A stretch of 8,191 nucleotides of DNA from Fusobacteriota bacterium (GTDB lineage Bacteria; Fusobacteriota; Fusobacteriia; JAPLKR01). Under the pieces are notes generated by a model. The model was not told where the DNA came from, made no database searches, and worked only from the letters and a program-made list of their open reading frames with translations. The translations under genes and the position numbers were made by a program. The stretch lies in contig JAPLKR010000007.1 in NCBI GenBank assembly GCA_026387965.1, forward strand, positions 1-8,191, written 5' to 3'. Positions 990-8,191 of this stretch are shown in pieces; the stretch's first letter is position 1; the number at the start of each line of letters is the position of its first letter.

Positions 990-1358
990 ATGAAAAATTA
1001 TAATAAAAGTCATGAATGGATTGAAATTGAGGGAAATGTTGCAACTGTAGGAATATCAGACTTTGCACAAGAGCATTTAGGTGATATTGTATTCATTGAT
1101 ATGCCTGAAGTGGGTGATGAATTTGAGGCAAATGAGTGTTTTGCCATTGTGGATTCAGTTAAAGCAACTTCTGATATATATTCGCCCGTTGCTGGGAAAA
1201 TTATAGAAGTGAATGAAGCGCTAAGTGATAGGCCAGAGCTTCTTAATGAGGATGCAAATCACAACTGGATTGTTAAGTTTGAATTTTCAAATTTAGATGA
1301 TTCTAATTTTCTTAGCGAAGAGGCTTATACACTATTTTGTGAGCAAGAGGGGAACTGA
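990..1358 (+). CDS. gcvH: Glycine cleavage system H protein (lipoyl carrier)
   Basis: A 122-residue H protein, full length for the family. It carries lipoate on a swinging lysine and shuttles the aminomethyl group between the P, T and L proteins of the glycine cleavage system in the cytoplasm. Family signatures are all present: SHEW (7-10), VGISDFAQEHLGDIVFIDMPEVG (19-42) and the lipoylation loop FAIVDSVKATSDIYSP, with Lys58 as the modified residue, followed by VNEAL and PELLNEDA. The loop has Asp where many H proteins have Glu (DSVK for ESVK), a mild change. The start is set by TTGGAGG at 975-981, eight bases upstream. Its TGA overlaps the ATG of the next gene. No gcvT, gcvP or lpd is in view, so here it sits as substrate of the downstream modifying enzymes. 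The motifs fit true H proteins better than the H-like lipoate carriers of sulfur oxidation (LbpA), but that was judged by eye. Confidence 0.97.
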   Translation: MKNYNKSHEWIEIEGNVATVGISDFAQEHLGDIVFIDMPEVGDEFEANECFAIVDSVKATSDIYSPVAGKIIEVNEALSDRPELLNEDANHNWIVKFEFSNLDDSNFLSEEAYTLFCEQEGN

Positions 1359-2164
1359 TGAAAAAAATAGAGTTTGTATATCCAGCAACGCTCTCCATCA
1401 ATATGGGTTCAAGGGTGTGTGAACTAAATTGCAAACACTGTGGGGGCCACTACTTAGAAGTGATGACTCCCACTTTTTTATTGAAAAATAGTAGTATGAG
1501 TACCTATAATTCGATACTTCTGAGTGGTGGGTGTGATAGTAGTGGAAAAATGCTATTTAATTCGGAAGTATTTGACCATATAGAAAATAAAAAAATTAAT
1601 TTACACATTGGGCATTACGACTTTGAACAGTTCTTACCCTTTATGGAAAAAATTCATTACATCTCTTTAGATTTCACGCTAGACAGTGAAATTATTCAAA
1701 ATATTTACCATCTCAAACAAACATCAGAGGATTTTAAGCTTCGATTTTCCACACTGCACGCTCTTTACCTTAATAAAGTAGTGCCACATATTTGTGTGGG
1801 GTTAAATTTTGGAAAGTGTGTAAAAGAGTATGAGGCAATTGAATATTTATCAAACTATAAGTTAGAGAAGCTCGTATTGATAATTTTTATTCCAACTAGA
1901 AACACCTATATGGAATCTTGTGAAAAACCTAATATTGATGAAGTGGTAGAGGTATTTAAGTTTGCAAAGCAAAAACTTCCAGAGTGCAAAATTCAACTGG
2001 GATGCATGAGACCCACAGGGAGATATCGAGTTGATTTAGAAACGCGTTTGATAAAAGAGGGGTGTGTTGATACCATTGTTAAGCCAAGTCGAAAAGCGGT
2101 TGAATTTACAAAAGAACTAGGGATTTTAACTACTGTAAAGGAGGCATGTTGTGTTTTTGAATAA
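1358..2164 (+). CDS. lipS2: Radical SAM protein, LipS2-like lipoyl synthase component
   Basis: A 268-residue radical SAM enzyme. The [4Fe-4S]/SAM motif CX3CX2C is at Cys21, Cys25 and Cys28 within CELNCKHCGGHYLEVM, followed by a LLSGGCD strand (54-60) in the place of the SAM-binding GGE motif. CMRPTGRYR (216-224), Cys236 and a terminal Cys264-Cys265 pair offer possible ligands for an auxiliary iron-sulfur cluster. This layout fits the archaeal biotin-synthase-like group containing LipS2. In Thermococcus, LipS1 and LipS2 together insert two sulfurs into octanoyl-H-protein. It lacks the N-terminal CX4CX5C and C-terminal RSSY features of canonical LipA. The gene overlaps gcvH by one base (TGATG), with AGAGGGGA just upstream as its ribosome binding site. 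Family membership is from remembered motifs. Assignment to LipS2 rather than LipS1 is moderately sure, supported by the paired gene downstream. Confidence 0.8.
   Translation: MKKIEFVYPATLSINMGSRVCELNCKHCGGHYLEVMTPTFLLKNSSMSTYNSILLSGGCDSSGKMLFNSEVFDHIENKKINLHIGHYDFEQFLPFMEKIHYISLDFTLDSEIIQNIYHLKQTSEDFKLRFSTLHALYLNKVVPHICVGLNFGKCVKEYEAIEYLSNYKLEKLVLIIFIPTRNTYMESCEKPNIDEVVEVFKFAKQKLPECKIQLGCMRPTGRYRVDLETRLIKEGCVDTIVKPSRKAVEFTKELGILTTVKEACCVFE
2137..2153 (+). promoter_or_regulatory. Ribosome binding site fixing a GTG start
   Basis: AAAGGAGG at 2137-2144 lies six bases before GTG at 2151-2153, inside the end of the preceding radical SAM gene. No better-placed ATG exists nearby, so this near-perfect Shine-Dalgarno decides the GTG start and a 14-base overlap between the two genes. 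Confidence 0.85.
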
Positions 2165-3101
2165 TAATGTGAAGATAGGAACCTCACTTTCAACAGCTTA
2201 TACTCTAGGTCTTAGAAATATCAGAATAGATGTTGAGTGTAAAACAGCTTATTTATTGATCGGCAGCAGTTGTGAAAGAGCATGTGATTTTTGTGGGATG
2301 TCAAAAAAAGAGGAAAAATCTTTATCACGAATAAAATGGCCACTATTTGACTTGAAAGAAGTCGTTGAAAGCTTAAAATTAAAAGTTCAAGAGAAAAAAA
2401 TAGAGAGAGTTTGCTTACAAGTGACCTGTTCGGATAATGGGGCGTTATTGAAAGATTTGATATATCAAATCAAAGAGATGAATGTCCCTCTTTCCCTTTC
2501 AAAATCCGTTGAGAGTCTCGTAGAAATTGAAGCCTATCTAGAATTAGGTGTTGATAAAGTAACGGTTAATTTGGATTTAGTTCAAGAGAGGGATTACCTA
2601 TCCTATAAAGGCATATCATATGTTGAAAAAAAAGAACTTCTTATAGCAGCAGCAAAAAAGTTTTCAAATAAAATTGTGTGTCATATTATTATAGGGTTTA
2701 GTGAAAGTGAACAAGAGTGTGTAGAACTTTTTAATGCGCTGATTAATCATAGAATTACTGTAGCACTTTTTGCATTTTTTCCTATAAAAGGAACAAAGCT
2801 TGAAAATCACCCTCAGCCAGAAATGGGAAAATACCGACGTTTACAATTGGTAAAATATCTTTTAGAGCAAAAAAAAATGGTTTTTGAAAAAATTAAATTT
2901 GATAAGTTTGGAAAAATCAACTCAATTTCAGAAGTTTTTGATGTAATGGATAGAAATTTATCTAAAGCGTTTCAAACAACAGGGTGTCAAGGGTGTACAC
3001 GACCGTATTATACGGAGAGACCGAGTGCTCCTCTCTATAATTTCCCCTATGCACTTTCATGTCAAGAAATCGAAGTATGTATAAAGGAGAGTGGACTTTG
3101 A
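2151..3101 (+). CDS. lipS1: Radical SAM protein, LipS1-like lipoyl synthase component
   Basis: A 316-residue radical SAM enzyme started at GTG. The SAM/cluster motif CX3CX2C is Cys41, Cys45 and Cys48 in SSCERACDFCGMS. Near the C-terminus, GCQGCTRPYYTERP (278-291) followed by PLYNFP contains Cys279 and Cys282. This is characteristic of the biotin-synthase-related group that includes LipS1, and the two cysteines plausibly help hold the auxiliary cluster that donates sulfur. The protein is clearly a paralogue-type partner of the preceding radical SAM protein rather than a duplicate, because outside the CX3CX2C motif the two share little. Encoded back to back, overlapping by 14 bases, they probably form one two-component lipoyl synthase acting on octanoylated H protein. 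Biotin synthase proper is unlikely: no other biotin gene is present and the neighbours are lipoylation genes. Which of the two inserts sulfur at C6 or C8 cannot be told from sequence. Confidence 0.8.
   Translation: MFLNNNVKIGTSLSTAYTLGLRNIRIDVECKTAYLLIGSSCERACDFCGMSKKEEKSLSRIKWPLFDLKEVVESLKLKVQEKKIERVCLQVTCSDNGALLKDLIYQIKEMNVPLSLSKSVESLVEIEAYLELGVDKVTVNLDLVQERDYLSYKGISYVEKKELLIAAAKKFSNKIVCHIIIGFSESEQECVELFNALINHRITVALFAFFPIKGTKLENHPQPEMGKYRRLQLVKYLLEQKKMVFEKIKFDKFGKINSISEVFDVMDRNLSKAFQTTGCQGCTRPYYTERPSAPLYNFPYALSCQEIEVCIKESGL
3085..3100 (+). promoter_or_regulatory. Ribosome binding site fixing a TTG start
   Basis: AGGAG at 3085-3089 is followed eight bases later by TTG at 3098-3100, and the TTG overlaps the TGA of the preceding gene (TTGA). 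Two upstream in-frame ATGs at 3059 and 3077 have no Shine-Dalgarno and would add 13 or 7 residues that precede the conserved start of the family. TTG is therefore the best start. Confidence 0.75.
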
Positions 3102-3850
3102 AAGAAAAATGGTACTTTATGCCTTATCAGACATTAAGTGGCAGAGAAAATATGGCTATCGATGAGTATTTTTTAGACTTTCCAAGAAAGTGCCCTCTAC
3201 TAAGAGGGTATGGTTTTATAAAGCCGACAGTTACAGTGGGACGATTGCAGAAAGTTGGGAAAAGTTTTCAGGAAGAGTGTATGGCTCAAAATGTGGAGAT
3301 AGTCAAACGGATCTCAGGAGGACGTGCAGTACTGCATTATCAAGATTTTACTTATTCTATAATAATTCCAAAAGAGCACACCTTGGCGAAACTGAGTGTA
3401 ATGGAGAGTTATAAAGAGATATCACACATATTTAGTGAATTTTTTAAAAGGTTAAGTCTTAACGTTCAGAGTGTTAGTAGAGTGAAGAGAGATGCAGAGA
3501 GAAGTGAGTTGTGTTTTGAGCTAGCTTCTTACTATGAACTTCTAATTGGTGGAAAAAAAATAATTGGAAGTGCACAATGTAGAAAAAAATATGCAGTGTT
3601 ACAACATGGAACACTGCTTCAAAAAATCGATGCCACTATTTATGAAAAATTATTTGGGTTAAAGGCGTCTAAAGAACTTTTTGAAAACTTTACCTCTCTA
3701 GAAGAAGTAGATATTCAAATCAGTGAAGAAGCGTTATATCAATTGCTTCTAAGCACTTTTCAAAGATTTAATATTGAATTGGAGGCATATCATCTTACAG
3801 AAGGGGATAGGACTCAAATCAAAGATTATTTATTGAAAAAATATCTATAA
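3098..3850 (+). CDS. lipM: LipM-like octanoyltransferase (BirA/LplA fold)
   Basis: A cytoplasmic protein of 250 residues from the TTG start, belonging to the biotin/lipoate ligase-transferase fold. The acyl-pocket motif RISGGRAVLHYQDFTYS (71-87) is of the LipM/LipL type rather than the SGGGAVFHD form of lipoate ligase LplA. Further on, CFELASYYEL leads into GGKKIIGSAQ, with the conserved lysine at 153 or 154. Cys139 in CFE aligns, by eye, with the catalytic cysteine that carries the octanoyl intermediate in Bacillus LipM. I therefore infer transfer of octanoyl from acyl carrier protein to Lys58 of the H protein, supplying the substrate of the two radical SAM proteins encoded directly upstream. 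ATP-dependent ligation of free lipoate or octanoate, as done by the Thermococcus ligase in an equivalent pathway, remains possible. The gene ends the operon; no U-tailed terminator follows before the next promoter. Confidence 0.82.
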   Translation: MKEKWYFMPYQTLSGRENMAIDEYFLDFPRKCPLLRGYGFIKPTVTVGRLQKVGKSFQEECMAQNVEIVKRISGGRAVLHYQDFTYSIIIPKEHTLAKLSVMESYKEISHIFSEFFKRLSLNVQSVSRVKRDAERSELCFELASYYELLIGGKKIIGSAQCRKKYAVLQHGTLLQKIDATIYEKLFGLKASKELFENFTSLEEVDIQISEEALYQLLLSTFQRFNIELEAYHLTEGDRTQIKDYLLKKYL

Positions 3851-5157: not shown

Positions 5158-5185
5158 AAAAAATCGGAAAATTGCCGATTTTTTT
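5157..5185. terminator. Bidirectional intrinsic terminator
   Basis: An 11-base-pair stem pairs 5157-5167 with 5175-5185, centred on TCGG/CCGA with a seven-base loop, and has T-runs on both strands. On the + strand it begins at the last base of the permease stop codon. On the - strand it overlaps the stop codon of a leftward reading frame, the usual arrangement between convergent genes. Confidence 0.85.
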
Positions 5186-5366
5186 ATACATCTAAAGCTT
5201 CGTCTATAAGCTCACGATTGTTTTTTATAAATAACTTGCCGTATTCAGGATTTTTTGTGTCTAGAATTTCGCCAGATGCAAAAATTATTTCAATACATTT
5301 AAGCATTATCAAAGACATCCATTTCACGGACTCAATGACACGCACCTTACACTCTGTTGTACTTAA
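5184..5366 (-). pseudogene. Relic or small ORF, C-terminal tail only
   Basis: A leftward frame is open from 5366 to the TAA at 5186-5184. It ends in the well-formed sequence FIKNNRELIDEALDV directly at the bidirectional terminator. An in-frame TAA lies at 5369-5367, and the possible starts (GTG 5345, GTG 5327, ATG 5318) have no Shine-Dalgarno sequence. The best reading is the surviving 3' end of a gene whose upstream part was lost or scrambled; a genuine peptide of 44-54 residues is less likely. I do not recognise the family. The neighbouring frames upstream on the same strand do not restore a convincing continuation. Confidence 0.35.
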
Positions 5367-5436
5367 TTATACAATTGCCTAATCTTACATTTATTCGCAA
5401 AAAGGTAAAATGAGTTACATTACACAAAAATATTGG

Positions 5437-5465
5437 TTGTAAAAATACTGAATTCGTTATATAAT
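5437..5465 (+). promoter_or_regulatory. Orphan promoter in the intergenic region
   Basis: TTGTAA at 5437-5442 and a perfect TATAAT at 5460-5465 are separated by exactly 17 bases, the best -35/-10 pair in the gene-poor stretch. The predicted start is near 5472. It could drive a short RNA ending at the hairpin at 5572-5595, or the STAS gene with a leader of about 350 bases. Confidence 0.6.
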
Positions 5466-5565
5466 TCCTACAATAGCTTGATTAGAACATTTATATGAAT
5501 ATGTAGAATTAGTGCAATAATTTCCAAATCTGATGGACAATACATCTCAAAGAAATATTTAAGTG

Positions 5566-5742
5566 ATGACACGACACTATTCAATGTCGCTTTTTATGTT
5601 GGCGATTGACGCTTTATGTGGAACCCAAGCAACAATTGTTATTTTTAAGCTGTGGTACAACTCTTATAAACTACTACAGAGGGTTATGGCAAAAACAAAA
5701 GATGTGAAAATGCAACTAAATAAATTGGCAAATTGTGCTTAA
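5566..5742 (+). other. Doubtful 58-codon ORF
   Basis: ATG at 5566 opens a 58-residue frame ending NKLANCA, with a hydrophobic N-terminal half and a lysine-rich C-terminal half. There is no Shine-Dalgarno before the ATG, and the same frame has stops at 5515-5517 and 5560-5562 just upstream. It may be a remnant or simply chance. I do not recognise it and would not call it a gene without expression or conservation data. Confidence 0.15.
5572..5595 (+). terminator. Weak terminator-like hairpin
   Basis: CGACA at 5572-5576 can pair with TGTCG at 5585-5589 across an eight-base loop, followed by CTTTTT. The stem has only five pairs, so termination would be inefficient. Its interest comes from lying about 120 bases downstream of the orphan promoter. 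Confidence 0.25.
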
Positions 5743-5779
5743 TACTTTAAAAACAGAGAGGGTTAATAAAGAGCAATAT

Positions 5780-5806
5780 ATGAAAATAATGGCTCTCATG
5801 AGCTAA
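5780..5806 (+). other. Possible eight-codon leader peptide
   Basis: ATG at 5780 encodes MKIMALMS and stops at TAA 5804-5806, 13 bases before the STAS start and just before its ribosome binding site. AAAGAG at 5768-5773 is a passable Shine-Dalgarno. Translation of it could bring ribosomes to the STAS start. An ORF this short also arises easily by chance. Confidence 0.2.
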
Positions 5807-5819
5807 GAAAGGATTAAAG

Positions 5820-6128
5820 ATGACGATAAAAATCATTGAACAAGAGAAGCAAATAGTAGCAAAAGTATCTGGACGCCTTGATATTCAAGAAGTAGAAAGT
5901 TTTTGTGATAAGCTTTTGCCATATGCAAAAGTAAGTGAGAAAATTATTCTTGATTTTTCTGAGCTTGACTATATTAGTAGTGCTGGGCTTAGAGGAATTG
6001 CTCAAGTAGGTAAAGAAATTTCCAAAAATGGCGGAATTCTTAATTTTTATCATTTAAAAGGAATGGTTAAAGAAGTTATTACACTAACAGGGTTTAGCAA
6101 TATTTTTAAAGAGATTGATACGCTATAA
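5820..6128 (+). CDS. STAS-domain anti-anti-sigma factor (RsbV/SpoIIAA-like)
   Basis: A 102-residue single STAS domain, the usual length for this family. In partner switching the unphosphorylated protein binds an RsbW-type kinase and frees its target, and phosphorylation on a conserved serine ends this. The core ILDFSELDYISSAGLRGIAQVG (43-64) matches the phosphorylation loop; Ser54 aligns by eye with the modified serine of RsbV and SpoIIAA, preceded by Ser53 where those proteins usually have Asp. The N-terminal strand, SGRLD turn and C-terminal FSNIFKEI helix are typical. AAAGGA at 5808-5813, six bases upstream, fixes the start. It is followed by a hairpin and then by a membrane PP2C phosphatase, its probable dephosphorylating partner. 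The final output may be a sigma factor or another protein, since many such modules in bacteria control non-sigma targets. Confidence 0.93.
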   Translation: MTIKIIEQEKQIVAKVSGRLDIQEVESFCDKLLPYAKVSEKIILDFSELDYISSAGLRGIAQVGKEISKNGGILNFYHLKGMVKEVITLTGFSNIFKEIDTL

Positions 6129-6129
6129 T
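6124..6129 (+). promoter_or_regulatory. Possible -10 box of the phosphatase gene
   Basis: A perfect TATAAT overlaps the stop codon of the STAS gene. No good -35 box is seen at 16-18 bases (TATTTT at 6101-6106 is poor), so this is tentative. If used, transcription would start near 6136, exactly where the hairpin begins, giving the phosphatase mRNA a 5' stem-loop. Confidence 0.3.
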
Positions 6130-6135
6130 ATTAAT

Positions 6136-6170
6136 AAAAGCTAGAGATGCCTTGATTCTCTAGCTTTTTT
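6136..6170 (+). terminator. Intrinsic terminator between STAS and phosphatase genes
   Basis: A perfect 12-base-pair stem pairs 6136-6147 with 6157-6168 (core GCTAGAGA/TCTCTAGC) around a nine-base loop and ends in a run of six T. It should end much of the STAS transcript. The ribosome binding site of the next gene begins at 6171, directly after the T-run, so read-through or a separate start is needed for phosphatase expression. Confidence 0.85.
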
Positions 6171-6180
6171 GGGAGTAAGG

Positions 6181-8191
6181 ATGAAAAAAAAAACGATATC
6201 ATCAGTAATTTTAAAGCCTATTATTTGGTTTGTAATTAGTATAATGTTCGTGTTCTTTTTTTATGTCGTTTATAATACTTTGAATTATAGCATTAAAACT
6301 AATATAGCTTATTTAAATGGATTTCAATATATAATCGAAAATAAAATTGAATCCTTTTCAAATGAAAATTATAATACAATGAAAGCATATCAACATGTAT
6401 TAAACAACTATCCGCTTGAAAATACAAAAGCAAATATTTTCACACTAGAAACATTGAAATTAGGAAATCATAACATTTATGGAATAGGGTTCGCTCCAAT
6501 TCCGTCATTATTACCCCAACTTGGGGCAAAATACATAACCGTTAAAGAAAAAAATAATAAGTTTGCATATAGAGTGTTTGATATTGAAAAATATGACTTA
6601 AAGCACGGTCATAAGGGAAATTACTGGGAGGACCCGTGGTATAAACAGGATTTAAATGCACCCGAAACAAATGTATATCAGCCCGTATATCTTGATGATC
6701 TCAGTCATAAATATATGGTAACTTATGCTTCTAAGATTTATGATAAAAATCACAAGTTTGAAGGCGTTTTAGTACAGGATTTAAGTGCGAGTTTTCTTTT
6801 AAATATGTTGAAAAACACATATGAAATATTTCCTGGTTCATATGTGAAAGTATTGATAAAACGCGATGGCATAATTACTCAATATAAAAATAATAAATAT
6901 GTACTTGAAAGTTCAGAATCGTACGCTAAAATGTTAGATAAAATAGATTTATCTAAAGGTGAAAAATTAGGCCCAAACGATAATGTTATATTTTATAAAA
7001 AGATAGAATATCATGGACAGATTATTCAAGCAATTACACTAAAAGGTTCTAATTTAGGAGTTTACTGTGTATTAGATATGAGGAAAATTCTATTTATGAA
7101 ATTGATTCCACCGATAGTGCTACTTCTTCTTTTAATAATGCTAATGTTGCTGTTTTTTAGAAAAGTTGTTTTAAAAATTGAAGGCATATTAAATTCATTT
7201 AGAAAGCAAATAGCTCAGTTACGGCGTATAGCTGTTCATAAAAAGTACGAAGAGAATATAGACTCAAGTAGTATTTATGAGTTCGAAGAACTACAAAAAT
7301 CCGTAAATCAGCTTTCCAGTGATATTTTAGATTCAATGGATGAGTTGAAGAAAAAATGTAAAATGGAGAATGAATATAAAACGGCTACACTGCTTCAAAA
7401 AAGTATGTTACTAAGTCAAAAATCATTTGATGCAAAGACTCTCACCAATATATCAATAACCAGTGGTTTTATTCCTGCAAGAATTGTAGGTGGGGATTTT
7501 TATGATTATTATGAAGATGATGAATATGTTCATGCATGCATTGGAGATGTATCCGGTAAAGGGCTGAGCGCATCAATTTTGGCGACAATTGCCCTTTCTT
7601 ATATTCGCTCTACAAGAAACATCACAGATGCAAATATTAGAGTAAAACAGCTTAATAATCAAATTTCTTCAATTAACAAAGATACTCATTTTGTGTCGTT
7701 TATCGCTATTAAAATTCATAAAAAAACATTTTTGATGAGTTATTGTAACGCTGGTCATAATTTGCCCCTTATTTATAACAATCGGGAAGTGAAAAAAATT
7801 AAAAATAATTCCGGAACGGTTTTAGGGTTGTTTGAGAATATTGAATTTGATGAAATAAACATACAGTTAAAGGCAAATGATAGAGTATTTTTATACAGTG
7901 ATGGAATCTCTGAGGCAGAAAATGAATTTGAAGAACTTTTTGGAGTAGAGCGAATCGAGAATATCTTGAAAAAATTCTATTATAAATCTTCAGTAGATTC
8001 TTTGCGGCAACTTTGGTGTGAAGTTGTCCAATTTTCGGATATAAATAAAGCAGATGACGCTACAATGCTGACATGTATTGTTGATAGACCAAATCAATAT
8101 AGATATAATTTTACTAAGAAAAGATATGTGAATGAGTTATTTGATTTTAGAAAGTTAAGCTATTTGTCACAAAATTCAGAAATCAAATATA
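6181..8191 (+). CDS. Membrane sensor PP2C phosphatase (RsbU/SpoIIE type), 3' end outside window
   Basis: An open frame of 670 codons runs off the right edge. A first transmembrane helix (about 14-31) is followed by an extracytoplasmic sensor region of some 270 residues. Its YWEDPWYKQD (148-157), VYQPVYLDD and FEGVLVQDLS stretches resemble a dCache domain. A second helix spans 305-326, then a HAMP-like and coiled-coil linker leads through LLQKSML to a SpoIIE phosphatase domain (about 425-635). Metal-binding motifs are intact: GGDFYDYY with Asp439, GDVSGKG with Asp456, NAGHN (523-527), YSDGISEAE with Asp574 and ADDATML with Asp626. It should therefore be an active serine phosphatase, likely removing phosphate from the adjacent STAS protein when its external ligand changes. 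GGGAG at 6171-6175 is the ribosome binding site. About 40 residues continue past the PP2C domain, so a further domain or tail is possible. Confidence 0.92.
   Translation, partial: MKKKTISSVILKPIIWFVISIMFVFFFYVVYNTLNYSIKTNIAYLNGFQYIIENKIESFSNENYNTMKAYQHVLNNYPLENTKANIFTLETLKLGNHNIYGIGFAPIPSLLPQLGAKYITVKEKNNKFAYRVFDIEKYDLKHGHKGNYWEDPWYKQDLNAPETNVYQPVYLDDLSHKYMVTYASKIYDKNHKFEGVLVQDLSASFLLNMLKNTYEIFPGSYVKVLIKRDGIITQYKNNKYVLESSESYAKMLDKIDLSKGEKLGPNDNVIFYKKIEYHGQIIQAITLKGSNLGVYCVLDMRKILFMKLIPPIVLLLLLIMLMLLFFRKVVLKIEGILNSFRKQIAQLRRIAVHKKYEENIDSSSIYEFEELQKSVNQLSSDILDSMDELKKKCKMENEYKTATLLQKSMLLSQKSFDAKTLTNISITSGFIPARIVGGDFYDYYEDDEYVHACIGDVSGKGLSASILATIALSYIRSTRNITDANIRVKQLNNQISSINKDTHFVSFIAIKIHKKTFLMSYCNAGHNLPLIYNNREVKKIKNNSGTVLGLFENIEFDEINIQLKANDRVFLYSDGISEAENEFEELFGVERIENILKKFYYKSSVDSLRQLWCEVVQFSDINKADDATMLTCIVDRPNQYRYNFTKKRYVNELFDFRKLSYLSQNSEIKY

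Follow-up and report, generated by a model that had tools for sequence, protein, structure and literature searches.

The stretch of DNA analysed here (the window) is an entire contig of 8,191 bases from a genome of 1.79 Mb in 141 contigs, assigned to the class Fusobacteriia (GCA_026387965.1; 95.5% complete, 1.15% contamination); since it is already the whole contig, it offers no wider gene context. It carries on its forward strand a compact cassette in the order gcvH-lipS1-lipS2-lipM, and the one-, 14- and four-base overlaps between these genes, described in an earlier note on this DNA, agree exactly with the coordinates in the list of ORFs:

990-1358, forward strand: gcvH, glycine cleavage H protein; TGA stop at 1356-1358
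1358-2164, forward strand: lipS1, predicted radical SAM lipoyl synthase subunit; ATG start at 1358
2151-3101, forward strand: lipS2, predicted radical SAM lipoyl synthase subunit; GTG start at 2151, TGA stop at 3099-3101
3098-3850, forward strand: lipM, predicted single-domain octanoyltransferase; TTG start

These ORFs are long and match known families, and are thus not chance ORFs. The ribosome-binding site of gcvH, TTGGAGGA, lies at 975-982; gcvH and lipS1 share the single base 1358, and the GTG start of lipS2, which overlaps lipS1 by 14 bases, is preceded by AAAGGAGG at 2137-2144. At the last junction, AAAGGAGA occupies 3083-3090, seven bases 5' of the TTG at 3098, which is most likely the start of lipM, giving the four-base overlap with lipS2; an in-frame ATG at 3059, 5' of this TTG, is a possible alternative. 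No Rfam families or tRNAs were found within the 8,191 bases, promoter-like sites in the window are at chance level, and its terminator-like sites (4 as opposed to 1.2 expected) are inside genes. Upstream on the same strand, an alpha/beta hydrolase gene (52-933) ends 57 bases 5' of gcvH and is possibly part of the same transcript; an acetoin dehydrogenase E2 model is matched by the hydrolase part only. Further along the contig, approximately 650 bases (5158-5819) hold no credible gene and are possibly gene remnants, with stop-to-stop pieces of 60 aa (5184-5366, reverse strand) and 59 aa (5563-5742, forward strand). They are followed at 5820-8191 by genes for a STAS-domain protein and a dCache and SpoIIE phosphatase sensor truncated by the contig end, which are a probable partner-switching regulator.

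Both central genes code for proteins with the radical SAM motif CX3CX2C to which the earlier note had drawn attention (C21/C25/C28 in LipS1; C41/C45/C48 in LipS2). LipS2 scores 290.7 bits against NF053743, above the equivalog cut-off of 270, while LipS1 matches NF053742 over its full length at 221.1 bits (E 1.9e-65), 9 bits under the cut-off of 230; since the NCBIfam LipS1 scores of relatives in other genomes range from 166 to 266 bits, this shortfall probably reflects divergence and is not diagnostic. On both proteins, the models for BioB and LipA give scores far below those for LipS1 and LipS2. In a radical SAM tree of LipS1 and LipS2 that included BioB, LipA and the HydE of the host as controls, five of which were checked by profile, the window LipS1 falls inside a LipS1 clade of 18 rows (support 100), apart from BioB, LipA and HydE, and the window LipS2 inside a LipS2 clade of 18 rows (support 94), apart from BioB and LipA. 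Neither groups with another function, and the synthase type proposed in the note withstands this check, with both proteins on long branches whose best identity to other family members is 38-40%.

The residues that would bind the auxiliary clusters are also in place. H144, C216, C264 and C265 of LipS1, whose columns are invariant in 31 sequences, correspond by motif and order in an alignment of relatives to H159, C230, C276 and C277 of the Thermococcus kodakarensis protein, and C88, C279 and C282 of LipS2, in conserved columns, correspond likewise to C85, C276 and C279, the ligands in Thermococcus having been established by mutagenesis (PMC9585515). By position in this alignment, T. kodakarensis LipS1 and LipS2 (TK2109 and TK2248) share all radical SAM and auxiliary ligand positions with the window; their genes, unlike those of the window, do not lie together, and the ligase that goes with them is bipartite (PMC9585515; PMC10332631). 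The AlphaFold model of LipS1 (pLDDT 93.9) has biotin synthase 8vdw as its best structural match in the PDB, where a sequence search recovered no LipS1 relative and only distant relatives of LipS2. On the basis of profiles, trees and residue tests, we identify the two radical SAM proteins as LipS1 and LipS2, expected to place sulfur at C6 and C8 respectively; the order of insertion is C8 by LipS2, then C6 by LipS1 (PMC9585515).

The product of the first gene passes equivalog and subfamily cut-offs for GcvH (144.1 bits against NF002270, cut-off 117; 131.8 against TIGR00527, cut-off 115.85), scores 129.4 bits against PF01597, and has the lipoyl lysine at K58 (codon 1161-1163), where the note had placed it. 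It is the sole GcvH match in a profile search of the host genome. Two other biotin/lipoyl-domain matches over the cut-off resemble biotin carriers, one of them adjoining an AccC-like gene; the weaker matches that were sampled resemble efflux adaptors, and no 2-oxoacid dehydrogenase E2 was seen among the biotin/lipoyl-domain matches of the host. GcvH is therefore the only evident lipoyl acceptor, and LipL is thus not needed.

The last gene of the cassette codes for a protein with a single LplA-type domain (90.8 bits against PF21948, LplA-B_cat, cut-off 27), with no adjoining LplB. Its model (pLDDT 93.2) folds like LplA, LipL and LipB structures and ends at the catalytic domain. The protein, in which the note had seen transferase motifs, has the cysteine C139 (codon 3512-3514) in a CF motif and the lysine K154 (3557-3559), both invariant among 33 cassette LipMs. 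The CF-motif cysteine occurs in 57 of the 68 LplA/LipM-family sequences compared, the window's included, and 10 of the 11 that lack it form one clade of archaeal and LplAB-type proteins (support 99). The equivalent of C139 is presumably the nucleophile of LipM in Bacillus subtilis, a protein which we take to share with the window LipM its single-domain fold, the CF...YE...GKK...GSAQ.R...LQHG motif and the position of the cysteine. The window's transferase is thus LipM-type, with the LipM cysteine that is absent from the LplA ligases in this set; as opposed to B. subtilis LipM, it is predicted to work with LipS1/LipS2 instead of LipA, and there is no LipL-type second ligase-family gene in its genome.

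The rest of the host genome was surveyed by profile searches, on which the following absences rest. There is no match to the LipA model TIGR00510 at E 0.001, and as the cassette lipM is the only LipB/LplA/LipM-family match, the survey gave no LipB, no LipL and no further ligase; with 141 contigs and possibly 4.5% of the genome missing, lipA could be absent by chance. The genes gcvT, gcvPA and gcvPB, for which the note had advised a search, lie together on another contig (C87) without an H protein, lpd is on C140 (467.8 bits) and the gene for ACP on C108 (111.6 bits). On C87, gcvT and gcvPA are separated by a NUDIX-family gene (L044:1099-1524).

Taken together, the four genes very probably constitute a module, complete in itself, that supplies the host glycine cleavage system with lipoyl-H protein. 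LipM would take octanoyl from octanoyl-ACP onto its C139 and pass it to Lys58 of the H protein, upon which LipS2 would insert sulfur at C8 and then LipS1 at C6 to yield lipoyl-GcvH, each of the two by SAM radical chemistry and with an auxiliary [4Fe-4S] cluster of its own. The product would then work with GcvT, GcvPA, GcvPB and Lpd, whose genes lie in other parts of the genome. We infer these reactions from homology, and with them their order, ACP as the donor and the cotranscription of the cassette. Lipoylation by LipS1/S2 has been demonstrated experimentally in both archaea and bacteria (PMC9585515; Tanabe et al., 2023, PMC10332631), and a route to lipoyl-H protein without LipA or LipB, as envisaged in the note, is supported here by the lack of a LipA match, the single ligase-family gene and the presence of the partner genes.

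Could the last gene instead be an ATP-dependent lipoate/octanoate ligase of the LplA type, so that the cassette activates free octanoate and not octanoyl-ACP? Among NCBIfam models, it matches that of the LplA large subunit best, although at 80.2 bits against a cut-off of 480, the fold of its model is closest to Thermoplasma LplA, and LipS1/S2 genes are described as often adjoining ligases (PMC10332631). However, the invariance of C139 in the 33 cassette LipMs and its absence from the LplA/LplAB clade, along with the single-domain form, the lack of an adjoining LplB and the presence of ACP, render a ligase improbable, and we retain LipM. Doubt might equally fall on the acceptor, in that it could be an LbpA-like protein for another system, such as heterodisulfide-reductase-like sulfur oxidation, rather than for glycine cleavage: LipS1/S2 are reported to have first come to light alongside LbpA in sulfur oxidisers (PMC10332631), gcvT and gcvP do not adjoin the window's gcvH, and its product has two cysteines, C50 and C117. 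These are, however, not at both ends of the protein as described for LbpA (PMC6067878), and a protein that passes both GcvH cut-offs and is the only GcvH of a genome with gcvT, gcvPA, gcvPB and lpd is hardly plausible as anything other than the H protein of glycine cleavage.

A different kind of objection is that the contig stems from a contaminating Clostridia genome, making the assignment to Fusobacteriia wrong. What speaks for this is that the contig is short, that the assembly has 141 contigs and 1.15% contamination, and that the cassette has its closest relatives in Bacillota. Against this, its tetranucleotide correlation is 0.43-0.57 with contigs of its own genome as opposed to 0.12-0.40 with the compared genomes, it supplies the H protein missing beside the host P and T genes, and none of the sequences is close to those of the Clostridia sampled. 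We hence regard contamination as very unlikely and treat the cassette as belonging to its Fusobacteriia host. The class of this host follows from a genome of the same class with a plasmid identical to one of Leptotrichia shahii; none of the other genomes compared is from the family of the host.

Across 84,980 species genomes, a search with a LipS2 alignment recovered at least 579 relatives. The top 80, a set biased towards the query, were taken as named loci; single-protein LipS2 searches gave no matches in viral contigs and genome contigs, and LipS2 had no match in plasmids. Among these best 80 of at least 579, lipS1, lipS2 and an LplA/LipM gene are consecutive in 45, and 30 have a full gcvT-gcvH-gcvPA-gcvPB-lipS1-lipS2-lipM operon, mostly in Clostridia (Bacillota), often with lpd next. 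This operon is routine in Clostridia, and its radical SAM pair has been annotated as biotin synthases. In Halothermothrix, Candidatus Frackibacter and Desulfosporosinus, it shows the window's four genes in unchanged order, the same LipM cysteine and a lipS1/lipS2 overlap of similar style (16 bases in 30 loci versus 14 in the window); in the window, by contrast, gcvH abuts lipS1, gcvT, gcvPA and gcvPB are on another contig and lpd is elsewhere. In Desulfofundulus, gcvH is directly 5' of lipS1, as in the window. In the Peptostreptococcaceae Clostridioides difficile and Tepidibacter, gcvH and lipS1-lipS2-lipM are together and away from gcvT/gcvP; unlike the window, these have acsV inserted after gcvH, ahead of lipS1, and the block is flanked by acs genes (the Wood-Ljungdahl cluster). 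At these two loci (L094:195-9798 in C. difficile; L137), acsC, acsE and acsB are upstream of gcvH-acsV-lipS1-lipS2-lipM, with no gcvT/gcvP there, and L112, L133 and L139 have a similarly spaced gcvH-lipS1-lipS2-lipM. One genome (G174; L066 and L207), judged by eye from sequence, has an overlapping gcvT-gcvH-gcvPA-gcvPB-lipS1-lipS2 with a LipB-like gene elsewhere and no clustered LipM.

The pairing of an 'archaeal-type' synthase with a cysteine transferase, held in the earlier note to be the most notable point, accordingly loses its novelty: it is routine in Clostridia and already published (PMC10332631), and the label itself is misleading, as bacterial members are abundant. Clustering of bacterial LipS1/LipS2 with an H protein gene and one of the lipoate ligase family has been reported (Neti et al., 2022; PMC9585515), as have a bacterial LipS1/S2 pathway and the occurrence of LipS1/S2 with LipM in several phyla (Tanabe et al., 2023; PMC10332631), so that neither the tight gene order nor the pairing is new. 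The main text of the latter paper makes no mention of Fusobacteria.

It is within the Fusobacteriia that the window stands apart. In profile searches of 98 genomes of this class, LipS1 was found only in that of the window, GcvH in seven and LipA in six; the one such locus read in detail (L205) has the order lipA-gcvT-gcvH-gcvPA-gcvPB. The host GcvPA/PB fall with Halanaerobia and a Fusobacteriaceae relative (support 97), which is consistent with an ancestral or a transferred operon alike. We tentatively suggest, as a possibility rather than the likelier course of events, that the Fusobacteriia have exchanged the lipoyl synthase of glycine cleavage, with a few relatives having a lipA-gcv operon and the window lineage LipS1/LipS2/LipM alongside a related GcvP; the sulfur-insertion step would in that event have been swapped while the glycine-cleaving enzymes stayed. 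In a concatenated LipS1 and LipS2 tree, the window is a long branch joining another long branch, and for this reason we do not name a donor lineage.

In summary, the cassette is a real lipoylation operon whose function was correctly interpreted and which is ordinary in kind. What is new is the presence of LipS1/LipS2 in a Fusobacteriia genome and a compact gcvH-lipS1-lipS2-lipM that lies apart from the P and T genes. This is a modest extension of range, by which the LipS1/LipS2 pathway becomes known from one more class of bacteria, and it offers in addition a minimal example with a single acceptor, one H protein, convenient for testing LipM, LipS1 and LipS2 as a four-gene kit.
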